NCBI GenBank assembly: GCA_902761365.1
Contig: CACWJZ010000026.1
Location: 1 to 45,556 of the forward strand
Length of the DNA stretch: 45,556 bases
Direction: 5' to 3'
Source: an uncultured Eubacteriales bacterium
GTDB lineage: Bacteria; Bacillota; Clostridia; Christensenellales; CAG-138
Position numbers and translations under genes: made by a program. Shown here one piece after another: positions 21,792 through 45,148 of the stretch (the stretch's first letter is position 1; every line of letters starts with the position of its first letter). The notes beneath the pieces were generated by a model, which worked only from the letters and a program-made list of their open reading frames with translations, had not been told where the DNA came from and did no database searches.

Positions 21792-21818
21792 GTTTAGTGA
21801 TTGTAAACTTGAAGTTTA
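21792..21818 (+). promoter_or_regulatory. Candidate operator with three GTTTA/TAAAC half-sites
   Basis: TAAACTTGAAGTTTA (21804-21818) is a perfect 7-bp inverted repeat about a central G, and GTTTA at 21792-21796 forms a second dyad with TAAAC at 21804. The sites lie just after the predicted transcription start of the regulator gene, where a repressor would block its own operon. Confidence 0.5.
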
Positions 21819-21831
21819 GAAAGGCTAACGC

Positions 21832-22372
21832 ATGGAGATCGGGAGCAAGATCAAGCGATTGCGGGTGCGGCTGGGCCTCACCCAGGAGGAGCTGGCGGCC
21901 CGGACGGAGCACCAAGGGGTTCATCTCCCAGCTGGAGCGGGACATCACCTCGCCCTCCATCGCCACGCTGATGGACATCCTGGAGGCGTTGGGCACCAAC
22001 GTCAGCGAGTTCTTCAGCGACAGGGAGGAGGACGCCCTGGCCGTCTACTCCGCGGACGATATGTTCCTCAAAGAGGACGAGGAGGCGGGGGTAACCATCC
22101 GCTGGCTGGTGACCAACGCCCAGCGGAACGCCCTGGAGCCCATTTTGGTGACCCTGGCCCCCGGCGCGTCCACGGAGGCAGACGATCCCCACGAGGGGGA
22201 GGAGTTCGGCTACGTGCTCTCGGGCACCGTCACCCTCATCTGCGGGGACCAGAAGCGCAAGGTCCGGCGGGGGGACGCCTTTTATTTTCACCCCACCGGG
22301 GTACACTATTTGACCAACAGCGGCAAATCGGAGGGGAAGGTGCTCTGGGTGAGCACGCCCCCTTCCTTCTAA
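21832..22372 (+). pseudogene. XRE-cupin transcriptional regulator of the pot operon, frameshifted
   Basis: The first frame from ATG 21832 encodes a helix-turn-helix start (MEIGSKIKRLRVRLGLTQEE, LAARTE) and then runs into nonsense-like sequence at about 21910. The continuation (TKGFISQLERDITSPSIATL, then a C-terminal cupin with GEEFGYVLSGTVTL) is in another frame. Restoring a codon such as CTC or CTG before the Thr-Lys pair, that is adding 2 nt after 21909, gives a normal protein of about 180 residues. Proteins of this type commonly control adjacent polyamine transporters. If the lesion is real the protein lacks half its DNA-binding domain and the pot operon may be derepressed; a sequencing error is the main alternative. 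No slippery sequence for programmed frameshifting is seen. Confidence 0.8.
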
Positions 22373-22394
22373 GAAACAGCGGGAGGAGAGAATC

Positions 22395-23768
22395 ATGGGC
22401 AAAAGACTGATCGAGCTCAGGGACGTTTCCAAGGAGTACGACGGCGACCTCGCCTTGGACCACGTGAACCTGTATATCAACGACGGGGAGTTTTTGACGC
22501 TGCTGGGTCCCTCCGGCTGCGGCAAGACCACCATGCTGCGGCTCATCGCGGGCTTCATTATGCCCACCACCGGCCAGATCCTGATGAACGGCACGGACAT
22601 CGCCAAGGTCCCCCCCTACAAGCGGGAGATCAACACCGTGTTCCAGAAGTACGCCCTGTTCCCCCATCTCAACGTCTTTGACAACATCGCCTTCGGTCTG
22701 CGCATCAAGAAGACCCCCAAGGACCAGATCGAGCAGAAGGTCAACGCCATGCTGAAGCTGGTGAACCTGGAGGGCTACGGGAAGCGCTGGATCGACCAGC
22801 TTTCCGGCGGCCAGCAGCAGCGGGTGGCCATCGCCCGGGCCTTGGTGAATCAGCCCAAGGTGCTGCTCCTGGATGAGCCCCTGGGGGCTCTCGATCTGAA
22901 GCTCCGCAAGGAGATGCAGGTGGAGTTGAAGCGCATGCAGCAGCAGCTGGGCATCACCTTCATCTACGTGACCCACGACCAGGAGGAAGCATTGACCATG
23001 TCGGACACCATCGTGGTCATGAAGGACGGGGTCATCCAGCAGATCGGCAAGCCCACCGACATCTATAACGAGCCCAAAAACCCATTCGTGGCGGACTTCA
23101 TCGGCGAGAGCAACATCGTCCCCGCCGTCATGATGGACGACTACAAGGTCCGTTTCAAGGGCCTGAACTTCAAGTGCGTGGACGCAGGCTTCGGCAAGAA
23201 CGTGGAGGTGGACGTGGTCATCCGCCCCGAGGACATCGACATCGTGGCCCCCGAGAAGGCTCGGGTGGTAGGCAAGGTGGTGTCCGTGGTGTTCATGGGT
23301 GTCCACTACGAGATCGATGTGGACTGTGGTGGCTACGAATGGGTGGTCCATTCCACGGACTTTGCCGCTGTGGGCGATACCGTGGGCATATCCATTCCTC
23401 CCGACGCCATCCATGTCATGAAGAAGACCCGGGCCACCAATCTGTTCGACGCCGAGGTCTGGCCCAGCGAGGGCATGATCTACATCGACGACGTGGGCTT
23501 CGCGGCCAACGATCTCGAGGGTTACGAAAAGAAGGAGATCGCCATGGTGGAGATCGATCCCGCCAAGGTGAAGATCGTGAAGCCCCAGGATGCCAAGCTC
23601 ACCGGCACCATCAAGAGCTGTATGTTCCTGGGTACTCACTACCAGATCACCGTCTCCTGCGAGGAGAACGACTGGATCGCCCATTCCGAGGAGTTCATGG
23701 AGGACGGCGAGGAGGTGGGCATCCTGGTGGACGCCCAGGACCTCATTCTGACGGACAAGAAGGAGTAA
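22395..23768 (+). CDS. potA: Spermidine/putrescine ABC transporter ATP-binding protein with two TOBE domains
   Basis: A 457-residue ABC ATPase. Walker A GPSGCGKT is at 38-45, followed by the Q-loop region FQKYALFPH, the signature LSGGQQQR, Walker [13 protein letters not shown] and the switch histidine in VTHDQEEAL. The usual PotA is about 350-380 residues; the extra length comes from a second C-terminal TOBE-like module. [19 protein letters not shown] and [19 protein letters not shown] are clearly repeats of each other. It energises uptake of polyamines together with the two permeases and binding protein encoded next. It starts 22 nt after the regulator and 6 nt before potB. Confidence 0.93.
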
Positions 23769-27739: not shown

Positions 27740-28713
27740 TCACGCCTGGGGCGCGTCGTTCTTGGCGTCCAGCATGGCGCGCCGGGCGGCCCGCCGCATC
27801 TCGGCTTCGGCCTGGGCCTTCTGCTTCTCCTCCTCCACCTGGGCGCGGATCTTCGCTTCGATCTCGTCGCAGAGCTCGGGGTTGTCCTTCAGGAACTGGC
27901 GGGCGTTGTCCCGGCCCTGGGCCACGCGCATCTCGCCGTAGTTGAACCAGGCGCCGGACTTGGTCATGATCTTCCGGGCCACGGCCTGGTCGATGATGCT
28001 GCCCTCGCGGGAGATGCCCTCGCCGTAGAGCATGTCGAACTCCGCCGTGCGGAAGGGCGGGGCCACCTTGTTCTTGACCACCTTCACCTTGGTGCGGCTG
28101 CCCACGCGAACATGACGCCCACCTTTTCCCGGAGCTGGTTGATGAAGATGACCACGCAGTTGGACTTGTTGATGGCGCCGGTGAGCTTCCTGAGGGCCTG
28201 GCTCATAAGCCGGGCCTGGAGCCCCACGTGGGAGTCGCCCATGTCGCCCTCGATCTCCGCCTTGGGCACCAGGGCCGCCACGGAGTCCACCACCACCACG
28301 TCGATGGCGCCGGACCGGACCAGGGCCTCACAGATCTCCAACGCCTGCTCGCCGGTGTCGGGCTGGGACACATACAAATCGTCCACGTTGACGCCCAGGC
28401 TCTCGGCATAGACCGGGTCCAGGGCGTGCTCCGCGTCGATGAAGGCCGCCGTGCCGCCCATCTTTTGGGCCTGGGCCACCACGTGCAGGGCGATGGTGGT
28501 CTTGCCGGAGGATTCGGGCCCGAAGATCTCCACGATCCGGCCCCGAGGGATGCCGCCCACGCCCAGAGCGATGTCCAAATCGATGCAGCCCGTGGGGATG
28601 GCGGAGATGTTCAGATTGGCGGAGCTGTCTCCCAGCTTCATGATGGCCCCCTTGCCGAACTGCTTCTCGATCTGCGCAAGGGCTATTTCCAGGGCTTTTT
28701 CCTTATCCAGCAT
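27740..28713 (-). pseudogene. recA: recA, internal deletion with frameshift
   Basis: The first 202 residues read as normal RecA: Walker A GPESSGKT at 65-72, [22 protein letters not shown] and [12 protein letters not shown]. Directly after MF, where GNPETTTGG and about 25 more residues are expected, the sequence jumps to [13 protein letters not shown], which is the normal continuation but in a different frame. Only 2 nt (28106-28107) remain of about 34 codons, so roughly 100 nt are missing and the frame is lost; translation ends after AWAAAPR. The missing part contains loop L2, which binds DNA, so neither half should be active. The C-terminal remainder (27740-28105) is otherwise intact. A collapsed or misassembled read is the main alternative to a true mutation. 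Confidence 0.88.
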
Positions 28714-37574: not shown

Positions 37575-39416
37575 ATGCCTTTTAAAACAGAAGACCAAGT
37601 AAGAAACGAAGCGGGCATCACACTGGGATTTATTGATGAGAACGGCAACAACGTCGAGACTGCCGATTATTTGTCTGGAGTTGGACAGTTAACCACGTTT
37701 ATTCAATTGGGCAACCGTTTAGGAACAACTGACTTTGCGGGAATAAGTGATAAACCAGATGGCTGGTTGCTCCCGTATAATCAAAATGGCGTAGCAATTG
37801 TGTTGGAGACAAAATCTGAAAAAACAGATATTTCCAAAAAGAAATGGAAAGATGAGTTAATTAAAAATATTGATATTCTTCAAAAACATTACTCAAAAAT
37901 TGCTGGTATTTTATATAATGGAAAAGATTGTAGGGTTTTTATGAACCACAACGAAGTCCCGAAACCTGCTATAACTCTTCAGCAACTTGAGTATTATACT
38001 AAGCTTTTTGTTCCCGATACCATCGATAAGGGAAGAATTTATGATTTAACAAAGAAAATAAATAACTGCTTGCATAAAGAATTTGGGGTCAAAAATCTCA
38101 ACCATAGGATGATTTTTACCGCTTGTGCATTGGTTGCTGTTAAAGAAGGTGCAATCCTTCATAAAGGGACAGAGTATTCTCTTTTTCATCAGACAATTCT
38201 AAATCAACTATCCAAGTCATTAAAAGATGCAAAACGGCAGAACGAAAAATTGGATTTGCTTTGCGAAGTGTATTCAGAAATAAAGATGAATACGACCAAC
38301 AATCAAGAAGCAATCGATAGCTTTATTGATTGGGTGACAGAAATATCGAATCTCATTAATTCCGACAAATGGAATGGTGAGGATGTAATGGCAATATTCT
38401 TTAACGAATTTAACAGATACAAAGGTAAATCAGAACGCGGACAAGTATTTACACCAGATCATATTACTTCCTTCATGTATCGTTTAATTGATGTGTCTCA
38501 AAACGATGTAATACTAGATGCAGCATGTGGATCAGGTGCTTTTCTAGTAAAATCAATGTGCAATATGATAAAGGATGCAGGTGGAATCAATACGAGGAAG
38601 GCAAAAGAAATAAAAGCAAAACAGTTATATGGTATTGAGTTTGATAGAGAGATTTATGCGCTCGCGTGTGCGAATATGTTGATTCATAAAGATGGGAAAA
38701 CTAACCTTGAGCAATTAGATTCTAGAAAAGAAGATGCATCAAAATGGATAAAGGGTATTAGCGTAAAACTTGAAGGAGAATCTCATATCAAGGGTGTTAC
38801 AAAGGTTTTAATGAATCCACCATTTGAAAAAGCCTATGGATGTATGACAATTGTTAAAAACGTGTTGGATAGTGTTCCAGCAGGTACAACTTGTGCCTTT
38901 ATATTACCAGACAAAAAACTTGAAAAGGACTTGACGGATAAAAAATTCGGCAATAAGGTTTTGAAGGATCATAAGCTTCTGACAATCGTCAAACTACCGG
39001 AAAAGATTTTCTCAGGAGTAACGGCATCAGTATTCGTATTCGAATCTGGGAAGCCACAAAACGGTCAGAATATTATTGGTTATTACATTGAGGAAGATGG
39101 ACTTGAAACCGTAAAAAACCAGGGAAGACAAGATATAAAAAATCGATGGCCATCTATTGAAGATTATTGGATTAGATCGATACAAGATGGAATTGATACA
39201 AGATACAACACCCGACAAGTTATCAATCCTTCTGAACATCTTTCCTATCAAATGCCAGAAAAGCCTTTTGAAGTTTATGAGGAAGATTTCATAAAGGCAA
39301 TGATGGATTATGAAATGTATCAACAAGGGATTGATGTAAAAAGTTTTAAAGAAAAAATAGCGCTAAAAACTCTATATGGTAATCAGTTTGGAAAAAAGGG
39401 CGAAAAAGGTGAATAA
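37575..39416 (+). CDS. Type IIB (BcgI-like) restriction nuclease-methyltransferase subunit
   Basis: A 613-residue protein with nuclease and methyltransferase in one chain. The N-terminal domain has a PD-(D/E)XK pattern: Pro61-Asp62 and Glu78-Thr-Lys80. The central gamma-class N6-adenine methyltransferase has motif I LDAACGSGAF (about residue 315) and motif IV NPPF at 414-417. A separate HsdR is absent, and the partner gene encodes a specificity subunit 1 nt downstream, so it resembles BcgI-type enzymes that cut on both sides of their site. A strong TAGGAGGAATAAG ribosome site precedes the ATG. Codon use is AT-rich, unlike the neighbours, indicating recent transfer. A plain type I methyltransferase is the alternative. 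Confidence 0.82.
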   Translation: MPFKTEDQVRNEAGITLGFIDENGNNVETADYLSGVGQLTTFIQLGNRLGTTDFAGISDKPDGWLLPYNQNGVAIVLETKSEKTDISKKKWKDELIKNIDILQKHYSKIAGILYNGKDCRVFMNHNEVPKPAITLQQLEYYTKLFVPDTIDKGRIYDLTKKINNCLHKEFGVKNLNHRMIFTACALVAVKEGAILHKGTEYSLFHQTILNQLSKSLKDAKRQNEKLDLLCEVYSEIKMNTTNNQEAIDSFIDWVTEISNLINSDKWNGEDVMAIFFNEFNRYKGKSERGQVFTPDHITSFMYRLIDVSQNDVILDAACGSGAFLVKSMCNMIKDAGGINTRKAKEIKAKQLYGIEFDREIYALACANMLIHKDGKTNLEQLDSRKEDASKWIKGISVKLEGESHIKGVTKVLMNPPFEKAYGCMTIVKNVLDSVPAGTTCAFILPDKKLEKDLTDKKFGNKVLKDHKLLTIVKLPEKIFSGVTASVFVFESGKPQNGQNIIGYYIEEDGLETVKNQGRQDIKNRWPSIEDYWIRSIQDGIDTRYNTRQVINPSEHLSYQMPEKPFEVYEEDFIKAMMDYEMYQQGIDVKSFKEKIALKTLYGNQFGKKGEKGE

Positions 39417-39417
39417 T

Positions 39418-40503
39418 ATGAAAGCTGTAAATAATGCCGATTGGAAGCCTTTCCAAATTGGTGGGGCACGTGGTCTATTTAAAATAATAAAAGGAAAGAG
39501 ATTGACTAGAGCTAATATGAGGGATGGAGATATAAACTTCATTGGCTCAAGCGCTGAAAACAACGGCATTACGAATCGAATTAGTAATCGTGCAAATATG
39601 CATCCGGGAAACTTACTTACGGTTGCATATAATGGATCAGTCGGAGAGACATTCTATCAAGAAAAAGAGTTTGTGGCTTCGGATGATGTCAACGTACTAT
39701 ATCCGAAGTTTGCAATGAATAAATACATCGGCTTATTTCTTTGCCCCATTCTTAGAGAAGCAGGAAAAAAATATGTGTTTATAGATAAGTGGAAAAAAGA
39801 GGACATGGAAAATGATTATATTTATCTGCCCATAGCTTCTGATGGTAATCCGGATTGGGGATATATGGAATCATATATGCAGACGCTTGAAAAAAAGGTG
39901 CAAAAATCCATTAATGATTTGCAAACAGGTGGGGATGAGAAGACGAAGAAAGAAGATATTTCTGGTTGGAAAGAGTTTGTAGTTTCAAGACTTTTCGAAA
40001 TAAAGTCGCCAGCTACTAGAAGCATAAAGTCCTATGATGAAGGAGATATCCCCTATGTTTCGTCTGGTAGTGTTAATAATGGGATCATTTCATATTTGAA
40101 ACCGAAAAATGGTGAGGATCTTGAAAAAGGGAGGTGTATAACAGTGAGTCCTTTGGATGGTTCATCTTTTTATCAAGAAGAAGACTTCCTAGGACGAGGC
40201 GGGGCTGGATCAGCTATTTCTTTGTTGTACAATGAGAACTTAACAAAGCTCAATTCATTATTCATTTGCACAATAATAAAACTCTCTGCGCAAAAATATA
40301 GTTATAATGATGCATTAACTAGTGATAATCTGAAAAATCTAGTATTAAGGCTTCCTGCTTCTACAAATAGCGAAGGATCCTACATTATCGATGTTGACAA
40401 GAAGTATTCGGAAGACGGATTTGTACCGGATTGGAATGGTATGGAGAAATATATGAAAGGAATTAGTATAATAGCGCGAGATAAAATAGCTGAATTATTG
40501 TAA
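39418..40503 (+). CDS. Specificity (S) subunit of the type IIB restriction-modification system
   Basis: A 361-residue DNA-recognition subunit. ATG 39418 is preferred over upstream in-frame codons because AAGG lies 8 nt before it. Two target-recognition halves are visible, each opening with a related phrase (DWKPFQIGG ... LFKIIKG and GWKEFVVSRLFEIKS) and each containing a glycine/asparagine-rich GSSAENNG or GSVNNG turn. Each half ends in a similar conserved helix (DWGYMESYMQTLEKKVQ and DWNGMEKYMKGISII). The two halves read the two parts of a split target sequence. The sequence recognised cannot be predicted by eye. Confidence 0.82.
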   Translation: MKAVNNADWKPFQIGGARGLFKIIKGKRLTRANMRDGDINFIGSSAENNGITNRISNRANMHPGNLLTVAYNGSVGETFYQEKEFVASDDVNVLYPKFAMNKYIGLFLCPILREAGKKYVFIDKWKKEDMENDYIYLPIASDGNPDWGYMESYMQTLEKKVQKSINDLQTGGDEKTKKEDISGWKEFVVSRLFEIKSPATRSIKSYDEGDIPYVSSGSVNNGIISYLKPKNGEDLEKGRCITVSPLDGSSFYQEEDFLGRGGAGSAISLLYNENLTKLNSLFICTIIKLSAQKYSYNDALTSDNLKNLVLRLPASTNSEGSYIIDVDKKYSEDGFVPDWNGMEKYMKGISIIARDKIAELL

Positions 40504-40578: not shown

Positions 40579-40607
40579 TTGCGGGATGCTGAATATCATG
40601 GTATCAT
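40579..40607 (+). promoter_or_regulatory. Possible guaA promoter
   Basis: TTGCGG and TATCAT are separated by 17 nt, 31 nt upstream of the start codon. Both deviate from consensus. No purine riboswitch-like fold was recognised in the short leader. Confidence 0.4.
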
Positions 40608-40638
40608 GTGTCATTATTGGAGGTTTGGAGGTAAGCCC

Positions 40639-41625
40639 ATGCAGCAGCTTTTGGTACGTCCTAAGGATATGAAGAGGATCGATTCGCCGGAATTGGCGAA
40701 GGCGTATATCGACGAACAGGTGGCCGCCATTCAGGAGCAGGTGGGCGACGGCAAGGTGCTGCTGGCCCTCTCCGGCGGCGTGGATTCCTCCGTGGTGGCC
40801 GCGCTCCTCATCAAGGCCATCGGGGACAGGCTGGTGGCGGTCCATGTGAACCACGGCCTCCTCCGCAAAGGCGAGCCCGAGCAGGTCATCGAGGTGTTCC
40901 GCAACCAGATGCACGCGAATTTGATCTATGTGGACGCCACGGACCGGTTTTTGGACAAGCTGGCCGGCGTCAGCGACCCCGAGACCAAGCGGAAGATCAT
41001 CGGCAAGGAGTTCATCGACGTGTTCGCCGAGGAAGCCCGCAAGCTCCAGGGCATCCGGTTCCTGGCGCAGGGCACCATCTGGCCCGACATTTTGGAGAGC
41101 GAAGCGGGCATCAAGGCCCACCACAACGCGGGCGGCCTGCCCGCCGACCTGAGCTTCGAGCTGGTGGAGCCGGTCCGCATCCTCTTCAAGGACGAGGTGC
41201 GCATGGTGGGCAAGACTCTGGGCCTGCCCGACGGCATGGTCTATCGGCAGCCCTTCCCCGGCCCGGGCCTGGGCGTGCGGTGCGTGGGCGCCATCACCCG
41301 GGATCGACTGGAGGCGGTGCGGGAGTCCGACGCCATCCTGCGGGAGGAGTTCGCCGCGGCGGGCCTGCAGGGCAAGGTGTGGCAGTACTTCACCGTGGTC
41401 CCCGACATGAAGAGCACGGGCATCCGGGACGGCAAGCGGACCGACGACTGGATGGTCATCATCCGGGCGGTGAACTCCGTGGACGCCACCTCCGCCACCA
41501 TCGAGGAGGTGCCCTACCCGCTGCTGCTCAAGATCCGCGACCGCATCTTCAAGGAGGTCAAGGGCGTGAACCGGGTCCTCTACGACCTTTCCAGCAAGCC
41601 CCTCGCCACCATAGAGTGGGAATGA
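40639..41625 (+). CDS. guaA: GMP synthase ATP-pyrophosphatase subunit (stand-alone)
   Basis: A 328-residue protein that aligns only with the C-terminal two thirds of GuaA. The start at 40639 follows TTGGAGG. It has the PP-loop LALSGGVDSSV, the FPGPGLGVRC block and the dimerisation domain ending in ATIEWE. The N-terminal glutamine amidotransferase domain (about 190 residues) is absent and the upstream DNA shows no sign of it. The enzyme activates XMP with ATP and needs ammonia, either free or from a separate amidotransferase subunit encoded elsewhere, as in archaea. The last codons use ATA-GAG-TGG-GAA; ATA is rare in this GC-rich gene, consistent with its 3' end having been supplied by the inserted element. 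Confidence 0.88.
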   Translation: MQQLLVRPKDMKRIDSPELAKAYIDEQVAAIQEQVGDGKVLLALSGGVDSSVVAALLIKAIGDRLVAVHVNHGLLRKGEPEQVIEVFRNQMHANLIYVDATDRFLDKLAGVSDPETKRKIIGKEFIDVFAEEARKLQGIRFLAQGTIWPDILESEAGIKAHHNAGGLPADLSFELVEPVRILFKDEVRMVGKTLGLPDGMVYRQPFPGPGLGVRCVGAITRDRLEAVRESDAILREEFAAAGLQGKVWQYFTVVPDMKSTGIRDGKRTDDWMVIIRAVNSVDATSATIEEVPYPLLLKIRDRIFKEVKGVNRVLYDLSSKPLATIEWE

Positions 41626-41774: not shown

Positions 41775-42332
41775 TTATTTATTTTTCCGCCAAGGGATAT
41801 AATATTCGCTTTCCAGGCCATCGTCGCAGGTATGGGGCCAGTTGAGTTTCCATTCAAAATACTCTTCCCTGGTGATCTCCCCGGCGTGTAACTCCTGCTG
41901 ACGAAAAAGCCATTCCCGCATGAACTCGTCCACAAGGCCATACTGGAAGTACATACCCACGGGAGGGTGTGCGGGCCAGTCATCGCTATCATTGTACCGT
42001 ACAGCGGTATCATCAGCGGCCCCTGCTCTGCCCGGATTGCGGACAAGTTGGAACAGGCGGATAGCGCCAGGGCTGTCCTCGTCCAGCCAGAAGAATGTCC
42101 GCATGAAGTCCTCGGCAGAGCCGGGGGCGATGGTGTAGAAGTTCTGGCGGTCTACCCGCAGCGCCTCGGCCATCTTGTCCAGCAGTTCCCGTTTCGGAAC
42201 ACGGTAATTCGTCTCATACTGGGCGATCCGGTTGTCCGCTCCCTTTTCCTCAAAGCCGATAGCAAGCCCCAATTCCTTTTGTGTCATGCCTCGAAAGGTG
42301 CGGATTTTCTTTATCTTGTCTCCGACTGTCAT
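41775..42332 (-). CDS. XRE-family repressor-like regulator of the mobile element
   Basis: A 185-residue protein with an N-terminal helix-turn-helix (IKKIRTFRGMTQKELGLAIG, then NRIAQYETNYRVPK). The C-terminal part is an acidic, tryptophan-rich domain I do not recognise by name; it contains EEYFEWKLNWP. It is transcribed away from the excisionase-integrase genes and has its own promoter, the usual layout of a mobile-element repressor. The palindromic operator in the divergent promoter is its likely target, which is inference. Confidence 0.85.
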   Translation of the reverse strand: MTVGDKIKKIRTFRGMTQKELGLAIGFEEKGADNRIAQYETNYRVPKRELLDKMAEALRVDRQNFYTIAPGSAEDFMRTFFWLDEDSPGAIRLFQLVRNPGRAGAADDTAVRYNDSDDWPAHPPVGMYFQYGLVDEFMREWLFRQQELHAGEITREEYFEWKLNWPHTCDDGLESEYYIPWRKNK

Positions 42333-42355
42333 AATATCCCACCGCCTTTGCCAAT

Positions 42356-42384
42356 AGTATAGCGCAAAAAAGCGAAAGATGCAA
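42356..42384 (-). promoter_or_regulatory. Promoter of the XRE regulator
   Basis: On the minus strand TTGCAT (42384-42379) and TATACT (42361-42356) are spaced by 17 nt, 23 nt before the start codon. Confidence 0.75.
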
Positions 42385-42416
42385 GATAATCTTTAACAAA
42401 AATGCGAAATAAATTC

Positions 42417-42446
42417 TTGACATTAACACTTATGTTAATGTATAAT
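42417..42446 (+). promoter_or_regulatory. Promoter of the excisionase-integrase operon
   Basis: TTGACA (42417-42422) and TATAAT (42441-42446), both perfect consensus, are separated by 18 nt. It drives the excisionase-like gene at 42499 and the genes behind it. Confidence 0.85.
42421..42440 (+). promoter_or_regulatory. Palindromic operator inside the integrase promoter
   Basis: CATTAACACTTATGTTAATG is a 20-bp palindrome with two perfect 8-bp arms that fills almost the whole space between the -35 and -10 boxes. A third half-site, CATTAACA, lies at 42458-42465. Binding here would exclude RNA polymerase. Confidence 0.7.
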
Positions 42447-42498
42447 GAAGATGGTGACATTAACATATTTGCGAAACTAAAATAAGGAGGTGCTGACC

Positions 42499-42687
42499 AT
42501 GGAAAAGGAGCTGTTTGTGAGAGCAGAGGAGGTCGCCAGGGAGCTGGGCATTTCCAAGCCCTACGCCTACAAGCTGGTGCGGGAGATGAACGAGGAGCTG
42601 AAGAAAAAAGGCTTTCTCACCATTCCCGGACGGGTAAGCAGGCGCTACTTCGAGGAAAAATTCTATGGGCTGCGGGACAGACAATAA
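42499..42687 (+). CDS. Excisionase-like helix-turn-helix protein
   Basis: A 62-residue DNA-binding protein. ATG 42499 is chosen because AAGGAGG lies 8 nt upstream; an in-frame GTG nine nt earlier is less well placed. The sequence VRAEEVARELGISKPYAYKL is a MerR/excisionase-like helix-turn-helix, followed by a basic beta-hairpin (KKGFLTIPGRVSRRYFEEKF). Similar small proteins precede integrases in Clostridia elements and probably assist excision or control int. The integrase follows after 13 nt. Confidence 0.78.
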   Translation: MEKELFVRAEEVARELGISKPYAYKLVREMNEELKKKGFLTIPGRVSRRYFEEKFYGLRDRQ

Positions 42688-42700
42688 GGAGGGAACCACA

Positions 42701-43675
42701 ATGCCGGCATACAAAGACAAGGCAAAGGGCACATGGTATGCGTCCTTTTACTACGAGGACTGGACGGGCAAGAAAGTAAAGAAAATGAAACGGGGCTTTC
42801 CCACCAAGCGGGAGGCTCTGGAGTGGGAGCGGACATTCCTGCAACAACAGACCGCCGACCTGGAAATGACCTTTGAAAACTTCGTGGCGATGTGCGACAT
42901 TCACTCCAAGGAGGTCATCGCCTGGCAGAATGAAATGCTGGGTTACCGGGACAAGAACGGCAAGCCCTACTCTCCGGTGTACTTAAAAACGCTGCACAAT
43001 CAGTTGAGCGCCGTGTTCAACCATGCGGTACGGCACTACAATCTAAAGGTCAATCCCGCTGCCCAGGCGGGCAATATGGGAAAGCCAAAGGGACGGGAAA
43101 TGCTGTTCTGGACAAAGGCGGAGTATCTGAAATTCGCCGAGGCCATGATGGACAAGCCCCTTTCCTATTACGCCTTTGAAATGCTCTACTGGTGCGGCGT
43201 CCGGGAGGGGGAGCTGCTGGCCCTCACTCCTGGCGACTTCGACTTTGAGAAACAGACCGTCACCATCTCCAAGTCCTACCAGCGGATTAAGGGCAAGGAT
43301 GTGATTACCGACCCCAAGACCCCTAAGAGCAACCGGGTCATTCAAATGCCCGCTTTCCTCTGTGAAGAAATGCGAGACTATATCAAGAGCCTGTATGGGG
43401 TGAAGCCCACCGACCGCATTTTCACGGTGACAAAATCCTACCTCCACCGGGAGATGGACAGGGGTGCGAAAGAGGCCGGGGTAAAGCGGATCAGAATACA
43501 CGACCTGAGGCACTCCCACATTTCGCTGCTCATTGACATGGGCTTTACGGCCCTGGCAATCGCTGACCGGGTGGGACATGAAAGCATTGATATTACCTAC
43601 CGCTACGCCCACCTGTTCCCCACCCGGCAGGCGGAGATGGCGGACAAACTGGACATGGAGCGAAAGGGGGCCTAA
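42701..43675 (+). CDS. int: Tyrosine recombinase/integrase with probable internal deletion
   Basis: A 324-residue site-specific recombinase. The N-terminal arm-binding part (WYASFYYEDWTGKKVKKMK) is followed by a core-binding domain and a complete catalytic domain: Arg168 (VREGELL), Lys209, His267-x2-Arg270 (HDLR), His293 and nucleophile Tyr302 (TYRYAH). Relatives I remember have about 35 more residues between the FENFV start of the core-binding domain and the KEVIAWQNEM helix; here only AMCDIHS joins them (residues 63-69), in frame. Catalytic residues are intact but core DNA binding may be lost. It starts after AAGGAGGG and is 3 nt before the mobC-like gene. Confidence 0.85.
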   Translation: MPAYKDKAKGTWYASFYYEDWTGKKVKKMKRGFPTKREALEWERTFLQQQTADLEMTFENFVAMCDIHSKEVIAWQNEMLGYRDKNGKPYSPVYLKTLHNQLSAVFNHAVRHYNLKVNPAAQAGNMGKPKGREMLFWTKAEYLKFAEAMMDKPLSYYAFEMLYWCGVREGELLALTPGDFDFEKQTVTISKSYQRIKGKDVITDPKTPKSNRVIQMPAFLCEEMRDYIKSLYGVKPTDRIFTVTKSYLHREMDRGAKEAGVKRIRIHDLRHSHISLLIDMGFTALAIADRVGHESIDITYRYAHLFPTRQAEMADKLDMERKGA

Positions 43676-43678
43676 ATC

Positions 43679-43999
43679 ATGTCAGTGAAAAATCTTGACC
43701 GACACAACCGCTGGAGAAACAAAACTGTGGCTTTCCGGGTGTCCCCGGATGAGGACAGGGAAATTGAAACCGCTGTGCGGCTCTCCGGCCTTACCAAACA
43801 GGACTACATCACCCGACGGCTGCTGTGCCGGGATGTGGTGGTACAGGGCAACCCCAGGGTGTATAAGGCCCTGCGGAACGAGCTGGCCGCCGTTCTGGAA
43901 GAACTGGAGCGTATCGAGGCCGGGAATGGCGTGGATGGGGAGTTGCTGGACACCATCCGGCTGATCGCCGCCATCATGGACGGCATGAGGGAGGATTGA
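43679..43999 (+). CDS. MobC-like relaxosome accessory protein
   Basis: A 106-residue protein with an N-terminal ribbon-helix-helix-like DNA-binding start (KTVAFRVSPDEDREIETAV, then RLSGLTKQDYITRRLL), as in MobC/relaxosome proteins that help relaxases open oriT. The C-terminal part is helical. It lies between int and the RepA-like gene, both within a few nt. No relaxase gene is in the window; it would be expected further right. Confidence 0.68.
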   Translation: MSVKNLDRHNRWRNKTVAFRVSPDEDREIETAVRLSGLTKQDYITRRLLCRDVVVQGNPRVYKALRNELAAVLEELERIEAGNGVDGELLDTIRLIAAIMDGMRED

Positions 44000-44002
44000 T
44001 AG

Positions 44003-45148
44003 ATGGATAGATTGCAAGAGAAAACGACTGCCCCATATCCGCCTGTTGGCGCAGACGGGGGACAGTCGCTCTCACAAAAACCTAACCAAAGTATAGCAGA
44101 GGGCGTGACAGAACACAAGCCCCCGGAAAGAGATTTGGAGGAAATCCTGCGGCAGATAAGCCGGGTCAATGACCCGGCCTATCTGCCTACCGTGTCTATG
44201 AATGACCTCTACGAACAGGTGTACCCCGGCAGACCTCCTGTGGTAGACGGTCTGCTCTATGCGGGGACATATCTCTTTGTGGGCGCTCCCAAGGTGGGCA
44301 AGTCCTTTCTCATGGCCCAGCTTGCCTATCATGTGAGTATGGGCCTTTCCCTGTGGGGGTATGAGGTGCGCCAGGGCTATCTGGCCCTGGAGGACAACCA
44401 CCGTCGCTTACAGGAGCGGTTGTACCGGATGTTTGGAGTAGAGAGTACCGGAAACCTGTTCTTTGCCATCGGAGCTAAGCAGCTCGGCGGTGGCCTGGAG
44501 GAGCAGCTAAAGGGCTTTGTCCGGGAACACACGGACACCCGGCTTATTATCATCGACACCCTGCAAAAAATCCGGGAGGCCGGGGCAGAGAAGTACAGCT
44601 ATGCCAACGACTATGAGGTAATCACCAAACTGAAACGGTTTGCCGATATAAGCGGGGTTTGCCTCCTGGTTGTACATCACACCCGCAAGCAGCAGGCCGA
44701 TGATAAGTTTGATATGATCTCCGGCACCAACGGCTTATTGGGTGCGGCAGACGGGGCCTTTCTGCTCCAAAAGGAGCGGCGGGCAGACAACGCCGCCACC
44801 CTGGACATTTCTGGGCGGGATCAGCAAGACCAGCGCCTCTACCTCAAGCGGGACGAGGAACGGCTTGTGTGGGAGCTGGAGCGGCGGGAAACGGAGCTGC
44901 GGCAGGAGCCGCCTGACCCGGTGTTGGAGGCTGTTGCCGCCCTGGTAACGGCGGAACGGCCAGAGTGGAGAGGGACGGCCACGGAACTTGTCGCCGCCCT
45001 GGGGCTGGATATGAAACCCAATGCCCTGGCTATGCGGCTGAATGTCCGGGCGTGGCGGCTGTCCTATGAGTACCACATCCACTATGAAAGCGCCCGAACC
45101 CATGCCGGGCGGAGTATCAAGCTCACGTTGGAGGAACCCCAGGCGTGA
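44003..45148 (+). CDS. RepA-like AAA/RecA-fold ATPase of the mobile element
   Basis: A 381-residue protein with a RecA-type hexameric helicase-like core. Walker A is GAPKVGKS (about residue 94-101), an aspartate-containing Walker B-like strand is TRLIIIDTLQKI, and a sensor-like VVHHTRKQ follows. The first 60 residues are an unstructured leader and the C-terminal 90 residues resemble a winged-helix DNA-binding region (EWRGTATELVAALG). Proteins of this AAA_25/RepA type occur in integrative elements and plasmids and can unwind DNA at an origin. It starts 3 nt after the mobC-like gene and ends inside the first 9-bp iteron array. Confidence 0.78.
   Translation: MDRLQEKTTAPYPPVGADGGQSLSQKPNQSIAEGVTEHKPPERDLEEILRQISRVNDPAYLPTVSMNDLYEQVYPGRPPVVDGLLYAGTYLFVGAPKVGKSFLMAQLAYHVSMGLSLWGYEVRQGYLALEDNHRRLQERLYRMFGVESTGNLFFAIGAKQLGGGLEEQLKGFVREHTDTRLIIIDTLQKIREAGAEKYSYANDYEVITKLKRFADISGVCLLVVHHTRKQQADDKFDMISGTNGLLGAADGAFLLQKERRADNAATLDISGRDQQDQRLYLKRDEERLVWELERRETELRQEPPDPVLEAVAALVTAERPEWRGTATELVAALGLDMKPNALAMRLNVRAWRLSYEYHIHYESARTHAGRSIKLTLEEPQA

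Follow-up and report, generated by a model that had tools for sequence, protein, structure and literature searches.

In the window, the whole stretch of DNA analyzed here (45,556 nt), recA is divided into two parts that lie in different frames (Table 1). The N-terminal frame (28713-28084, 209 aa) matched positions 1-200 of the 321 positions of the NCBIfam profile TIGR02012, and the C-terminal frame (28105-27740, 121 aa), which happens to start with GTG, matched positions 234-320. The Pfam RecA profile (PF00154) likewise matched in two frames, at positions 1-197 and 230-262 of 262. The first piece alone scored 372.9 bits, above the TIGR02012 cut-off of 325.3, and the contig copy gave no full-length single-frame match to either profile. 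Both frames are open, and neither part contains an internal stop. An earlier note on this DNA had described both sides of the split as good RecA, and each part was indeed clear by TIGR02012 and PF00154. The flanking cinA, which had been called intact, proved to be an open frame in which the three Pfam CinA-type domains are all present.

Table 1. Features of the window, with positions and strands as recorded
Feature	Position	Strand	Remarks
recA (whole)	28713 down to 27740	minus	between cinA and alpha/beta-hydrolase gene
recA 5' part, in frame over about 202 codons	28107..28713	-	profile matches; dN/dS 0.02-0.13 vs nine genus mates
recA 3' part, different frame	27740..28106	-	profile matches; 98.9% identity to equivalent G005 part
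Junction	28106..28107	-	exactly 100 nt absent vs nine genus mates
99-nt stretch identical to G003	28008..28106	-	junction to first window-private base
cinA	30033-28807		flanks recA
alpha/beta-hydrolase gene	27713-26928		flanks recA on the other side from cinA
Regulator gene with C-terminal cupin domain	21797-22410	+	before ABC-transporter genes
Second frame-breaking loss, in the cupin-domain regulator	21910..21911	+	2 nt fewer than four mates
N6 DNA methylase-type and type I specificity-type protein pair	37575-40503	+	AT-rich
GMP synthase C-terminal-type gene	40579-41625		no amidotransferase domain found
Integrase, NikA-like mobilisation protein, AAA protein, HTH regulator	within 41775-45148		contig end

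Anchors that abut at 28107/28106 stand exactly 100 nt further apart in all nine genus mates (other genomes of the genus) with a readable copy. For one of these, G005, the copy to the left of its N run was used; the copy to the right lies 104 nt further on, as a result of duplicated ends. The loss, which had been put at about 100 nt, is thus confirmed and exact, and the 2 nt reported between VGVMF and VGSRTKVKV were found as described. As 100 cannot be divided by 3, the recA frame is lost as well. The missing residues, about 33 in all, start after MF and stop before VGS. Alignment to E. coli RecA chains indicated that the earlier description of a lost loop-L2 region holds in part: the loss takes the end of L2, which we take to be residues 195-209 of RecA, and about 27 residues after it, and L2 is not entirely removed. 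The complete DNA-binding loop with its following stretch is absent as assembled. Reading of the alignment revealed no microhomology at the break and no flanking repeat that would favor a real deletion.

We compared recA across the genus (12 genomes including that of the window, G000, with one genome per species) and the family. A RecA match was present in 92 of 103 family genomes and in 50/50 of those of good quality, defined by a completeness of 90% or more and a contamination of 5% or less. By eye, 84 of the 92 matched genomes covered profile positions 1-262, and in G009 the match ran from 1 to 261, up to the contig end. Split or partial RecA was counted, also by eye, in seven genomes (G000, G004, G005, G046, G075, G089, and G097), all of them 61-78% complete and none in the good-quality group. 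Given these counts, recA is general in the family, and broken copies track draft quality. Within the genus, 10/12 genomes matched: six had the whole profile (G001, G002, G003, G006, G007, and G008) in open frames of 357-364 aa, and the copies of G000, G004, and G005 were split. RecA matches were absent in G010 (93% complete, 6% contamination) and G011 (70% complete), both of which are drafts. Over the initial portion of RecA, the top identities among 80 loci from named genomes were 74-80%. Nothing indicated that the window itself is a two-species chimera, and its identities to mates on both sides of the break were in line with those of other pairs.

To describe selection on the two parts, dN/dS was calculated. 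For the 5' part, the values among mates covered the same range of 0.02-0.13 as those of the window against the mates. For the 3' part, the window gave 0.09-0.36 against eight mates, with the highest values against G006 and G003; the G005 copy gave 0.29-0.30 against the same two genomes. The window did not differ from the short 3' end of G009. Relaxed selection, which is expected of a true pseudogene, was not found on the remnant. The recA remnant bears no sign of decay, though a very recent loss would look the same.

The earlier note had suggested searching for a second recA elsewhere in the genome. None was found in the readable contigs by family profile. A DNA search of the same contigs for the missing segment returned 31 matches (E ≤ 10), the best of which (E 0.003 over 27 nt) was read, like the rest, as noise. 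A search with SMC_N revealed open frames of recN-like, recF-like, and SMC size without stops; the names recN and recF follow from size, and for recF also from a gyrase-type match on the same contig. LexA was uninformative as a test of the SOS system, as Pfam LexA_DNA_bind matched 2/12 genus genomes and 10/14 control genomes.

Breaks around the same spot were observed in other assemblies. Four of the seven split or partial genomes break within profile positions 197-247, namely the window, G005 (at NNNNN), G075, and G097; in the latter two, recA is divided between two contigs, at profile positions 227-242 and 226, respectively. The contig of G009 stops 94 nt beyond the point of the window's junction, and its sequence there is identical to that of the window. 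The spot is thus fragile in G005, G075, G097, and G009. G004 (L115, G004:C25; 77% complete) has a separate, out-of-frame loss of 32 nt, and its recA frame stops at 220 aa, versus 357-364 aa in six mates. Near the 5' end, G004 recA also differs from that of G007 by 42 nt, where G007 has a repeated unit.

In G005 (L114, G005:C23), a run of NNNNN lies inside recA around 15161, and the ends that flank it overlap by exactly 99 nt. To the right of recA this contig was 98.1% identical to G003, whereas to the left it was 83.0% identical to G003 and 96.7% to the window. Judged from its sequence, the G005 contig is a chimera of two species joined inside recA. By length, the 99-nt overlap consists of 57 of the window's 100 missing nt and 42 nt past the junction. 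The window-like part of G005 opens with these 57 + 42 nt, after which comes a base that sets it apart from G003, and its recA 3' part, to which the 57 nt are attached, is the one closely identical to that of the window (Table 1). At least those 57 nt thus seem to be in place in a strain closely related to that of the window, provided that one assembler word is trusted; the evidence hinges on this word because its 99 nt also occur on the contig across the N run.

To relate the junction to contig ends, the source assembly (69% complete, 116 contigs, 2.3 Mb) was examined. Eighty contig ends were sampled, and 10 of them gave N; adding the two ends of the window made 72 of 232 ends comparable. Exact end-to-end overlaps among the 72 ends were found in 10 pairs, with a length of 99 nt in three and 41-91 nt in seven and none longer; two further pairs shared words without an end-to-end overlap. 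The 99 nt after the junction were the longest exact match between the window and G003 in the stretches compared, and base 28007 differs from every mate readable there. This flank is exactly as long as the longest of the overlaps among those 72 ends. For 0.7% of random points in the 20-34 kb region, the next private base on that side lay 98-100 nt away, in a test picked after the pattern had been seen. On this side, the break abuts a stretch of contig-overlap length shared exactly with a relative, and the flank looks like a contig end at a branch of the assembly graph. The other side is not clean: window-private bases come closest to the junction at position 28126, 20 nt away, and at 101 nt. 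This flank would fit a 99-nt contig end only if a co-occurring strain shared the nearer base, and it would then be one base off.

A second frame-breaking loss was found in the cupin-domain regulator, which is a 180-aa open frame in 4/4 mates compared. The 99-nt pattern was not seen at 21910/21911, where the nearest private bases were at 21859 and 22003. This 2-nt loss is probably a second assembly error. In the comparison of frames, 21 mate frames each matched two or more frames of the window; the real breaks, judged by eye, were recA and the regulator at 21.9 kb, and the remaining multi-frame matches were set aside, also by eye, as variable stretches or as frames that overlap or run antisense. 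No stops were present in seven other long-gene loci of the genome (matches to PF00133 and PF00521), indicating that errors are not everywhere in the assembly.

Other features lie toward the end of the contig. The G+C content at 38-40 kb, where the methylase and specificity pair is located, was 0.35, versus 0.61 for the contig. In the stretches of the mates that were compared, the region of this pair had no match longer than 300 nt, and no separate restriction subunit was recognized by eye in the frames near it. The cluster beside the GMP synthase-type gene may possibly be an integrative mobilisable element. An active mobile element had been placed next door to recA; an integrase and mobilisation cluster is present at 42.7-45.1 kb, but about 14 kb away from recA.

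These results suggest that the recA deletion is very probably an artefact of short-read, metagenome-type assembly, in which the joining of two contigs left out sequence shared between strains, and that recA is most likely ordinary and intact in the living cell. This reading draws on the draft state of the assembly, the RecA matches across the family, the clustering of breaks, the two-species join in G005, the 99-nt lengths, the low dN/dS and open frames of the two parts, the second frame break on the contig together with the separate loss in G004, and the recN- and recF-like frames. Observed are the break with its exact size, the stretch shared with G003, overlaps of 99 nt in this assembly, and breaks around the same spot elsewhere. 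The genome itself would be a metagenome bin, a relative would have been present in the same sample, and a software step would lie behind the join. The window's species and a related one would be identical in a part of recA over about the assembler word length, and the assembly graph holding both would branch at this shared stretch. Two contigs of the window's species would end there and be joined directly, and the 100 nt of shared sequence between them would be left out. Against the artefact, the missing segment was unseen elsewhere in the readable genome, so that no leftover fragment shows that it was sequenced. The lack of the 99-nt pattern at the second frame break also speaks against it, as do the imperfect fit of the other flank, the seven of ten end overlaps shorter than 99 nt and the two further pairs with shared words, the absence of chimera signs in the window, the seven long-gene loci free of stops, and the two genus genomes without a RecA match.

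A real and very recent 100-nt deletion would inactivate recA and leave the cell without homologous recombination or SOS induction. Such a deletion is unlikely, at a small fraction of the probability that we assign to the artefact, although the loss lies within a contig without any N, the readable contigs of the genome yielded neither a second recA nor a RecA fragment, the low dN/dS is also compatible with very recent loss, and two other genus genomes, both drafts, had no RecA match. It is opposed by the RecA match in every good-quality family genome, by surroundings that are a breakpoint in other assemblies, by the 99-nt coincidence at the junction, and by the close relative's 3' part joined to part of the missing segment in G005. 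True recA loss is described, in the available portion of PMC3202245, for reduced symbionts such as those of Calyptogena clams, which are intracellular, have genomes of about 1 Mb, and lose the gene in whole clades. The window resembles them in having a recA remnant in a bacterial genome, but it differs from them in that 92/103 family genomes match RecA and that the assembly is 2.3 Mb. We consider it improbable that a Clostridia-type bacterium with a genome of 2.3 Mb or larger has just lost RecA through a 100-nt deletion and survives in nature without homologous recombination while keeping recN- and recF-like genes. The free-living cell without RecA raised in the earlier note was not borne out, since all 50 good-quality family genomes match RecA, the seven copies that are split or partial all fall outside that group, other assemblies break around the same place, and the junction flank has the longest contig-end overlap length found. 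The earlier note had held this reading and an assembly collapse to be equally possible; the collapse is favored, and the RecA-less cell is unsupported.

A mixed population, in which most cells have an intact recA and a minority deletion haplotype was assembled, is very improbable, because a second allele was unseen in the genome's readable contigs and the 99-nt pattern needs no real deletion. That the gene works as two pieces or through frame-changing decoding, without the end of loop L2, would agree with two open, conserved frames and with the GTG that happens to begin the 3' frame. We regard this as close to negligible, since about 33 residues are gone, including the end of the DNA-binding loop, and the profile is complete in 84/92 matched family genomes and complete in G009 but for the last position. 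A join that lost sequence common to several strains accounts for the break by ordinary means, whereas several coincidences would be required for recA to be truly lost.

Comparable assembly effects are described in the available portions of two publications. Spurious pseudogenes arising from genome assembly, with frameshifts and internal stops in single-strain assemblies, are reported in PMC11017572; the window is similar in that a gene intact in relatives looks broken in an assembly, but here the loss is 100 nt and the draft is of probable metagenome origin, unlike the cases in that portion. The review PMC7299287 describes chimeric contigs in de Bruijn assemblies, where words common to related species tangle the graph. 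G005 is such a chimera at the recA spot, whereas the window shows no species switch and would have lost shared sequence instead. Strongly conserved genes such as recA are where short-read assemblies of related strains can break, misjoin, or lose bases, and a recA that seems to be missing from a draft genome should be weighed against completeness and contig-overlap length. As biology, the recA break is most likely of no consequence.
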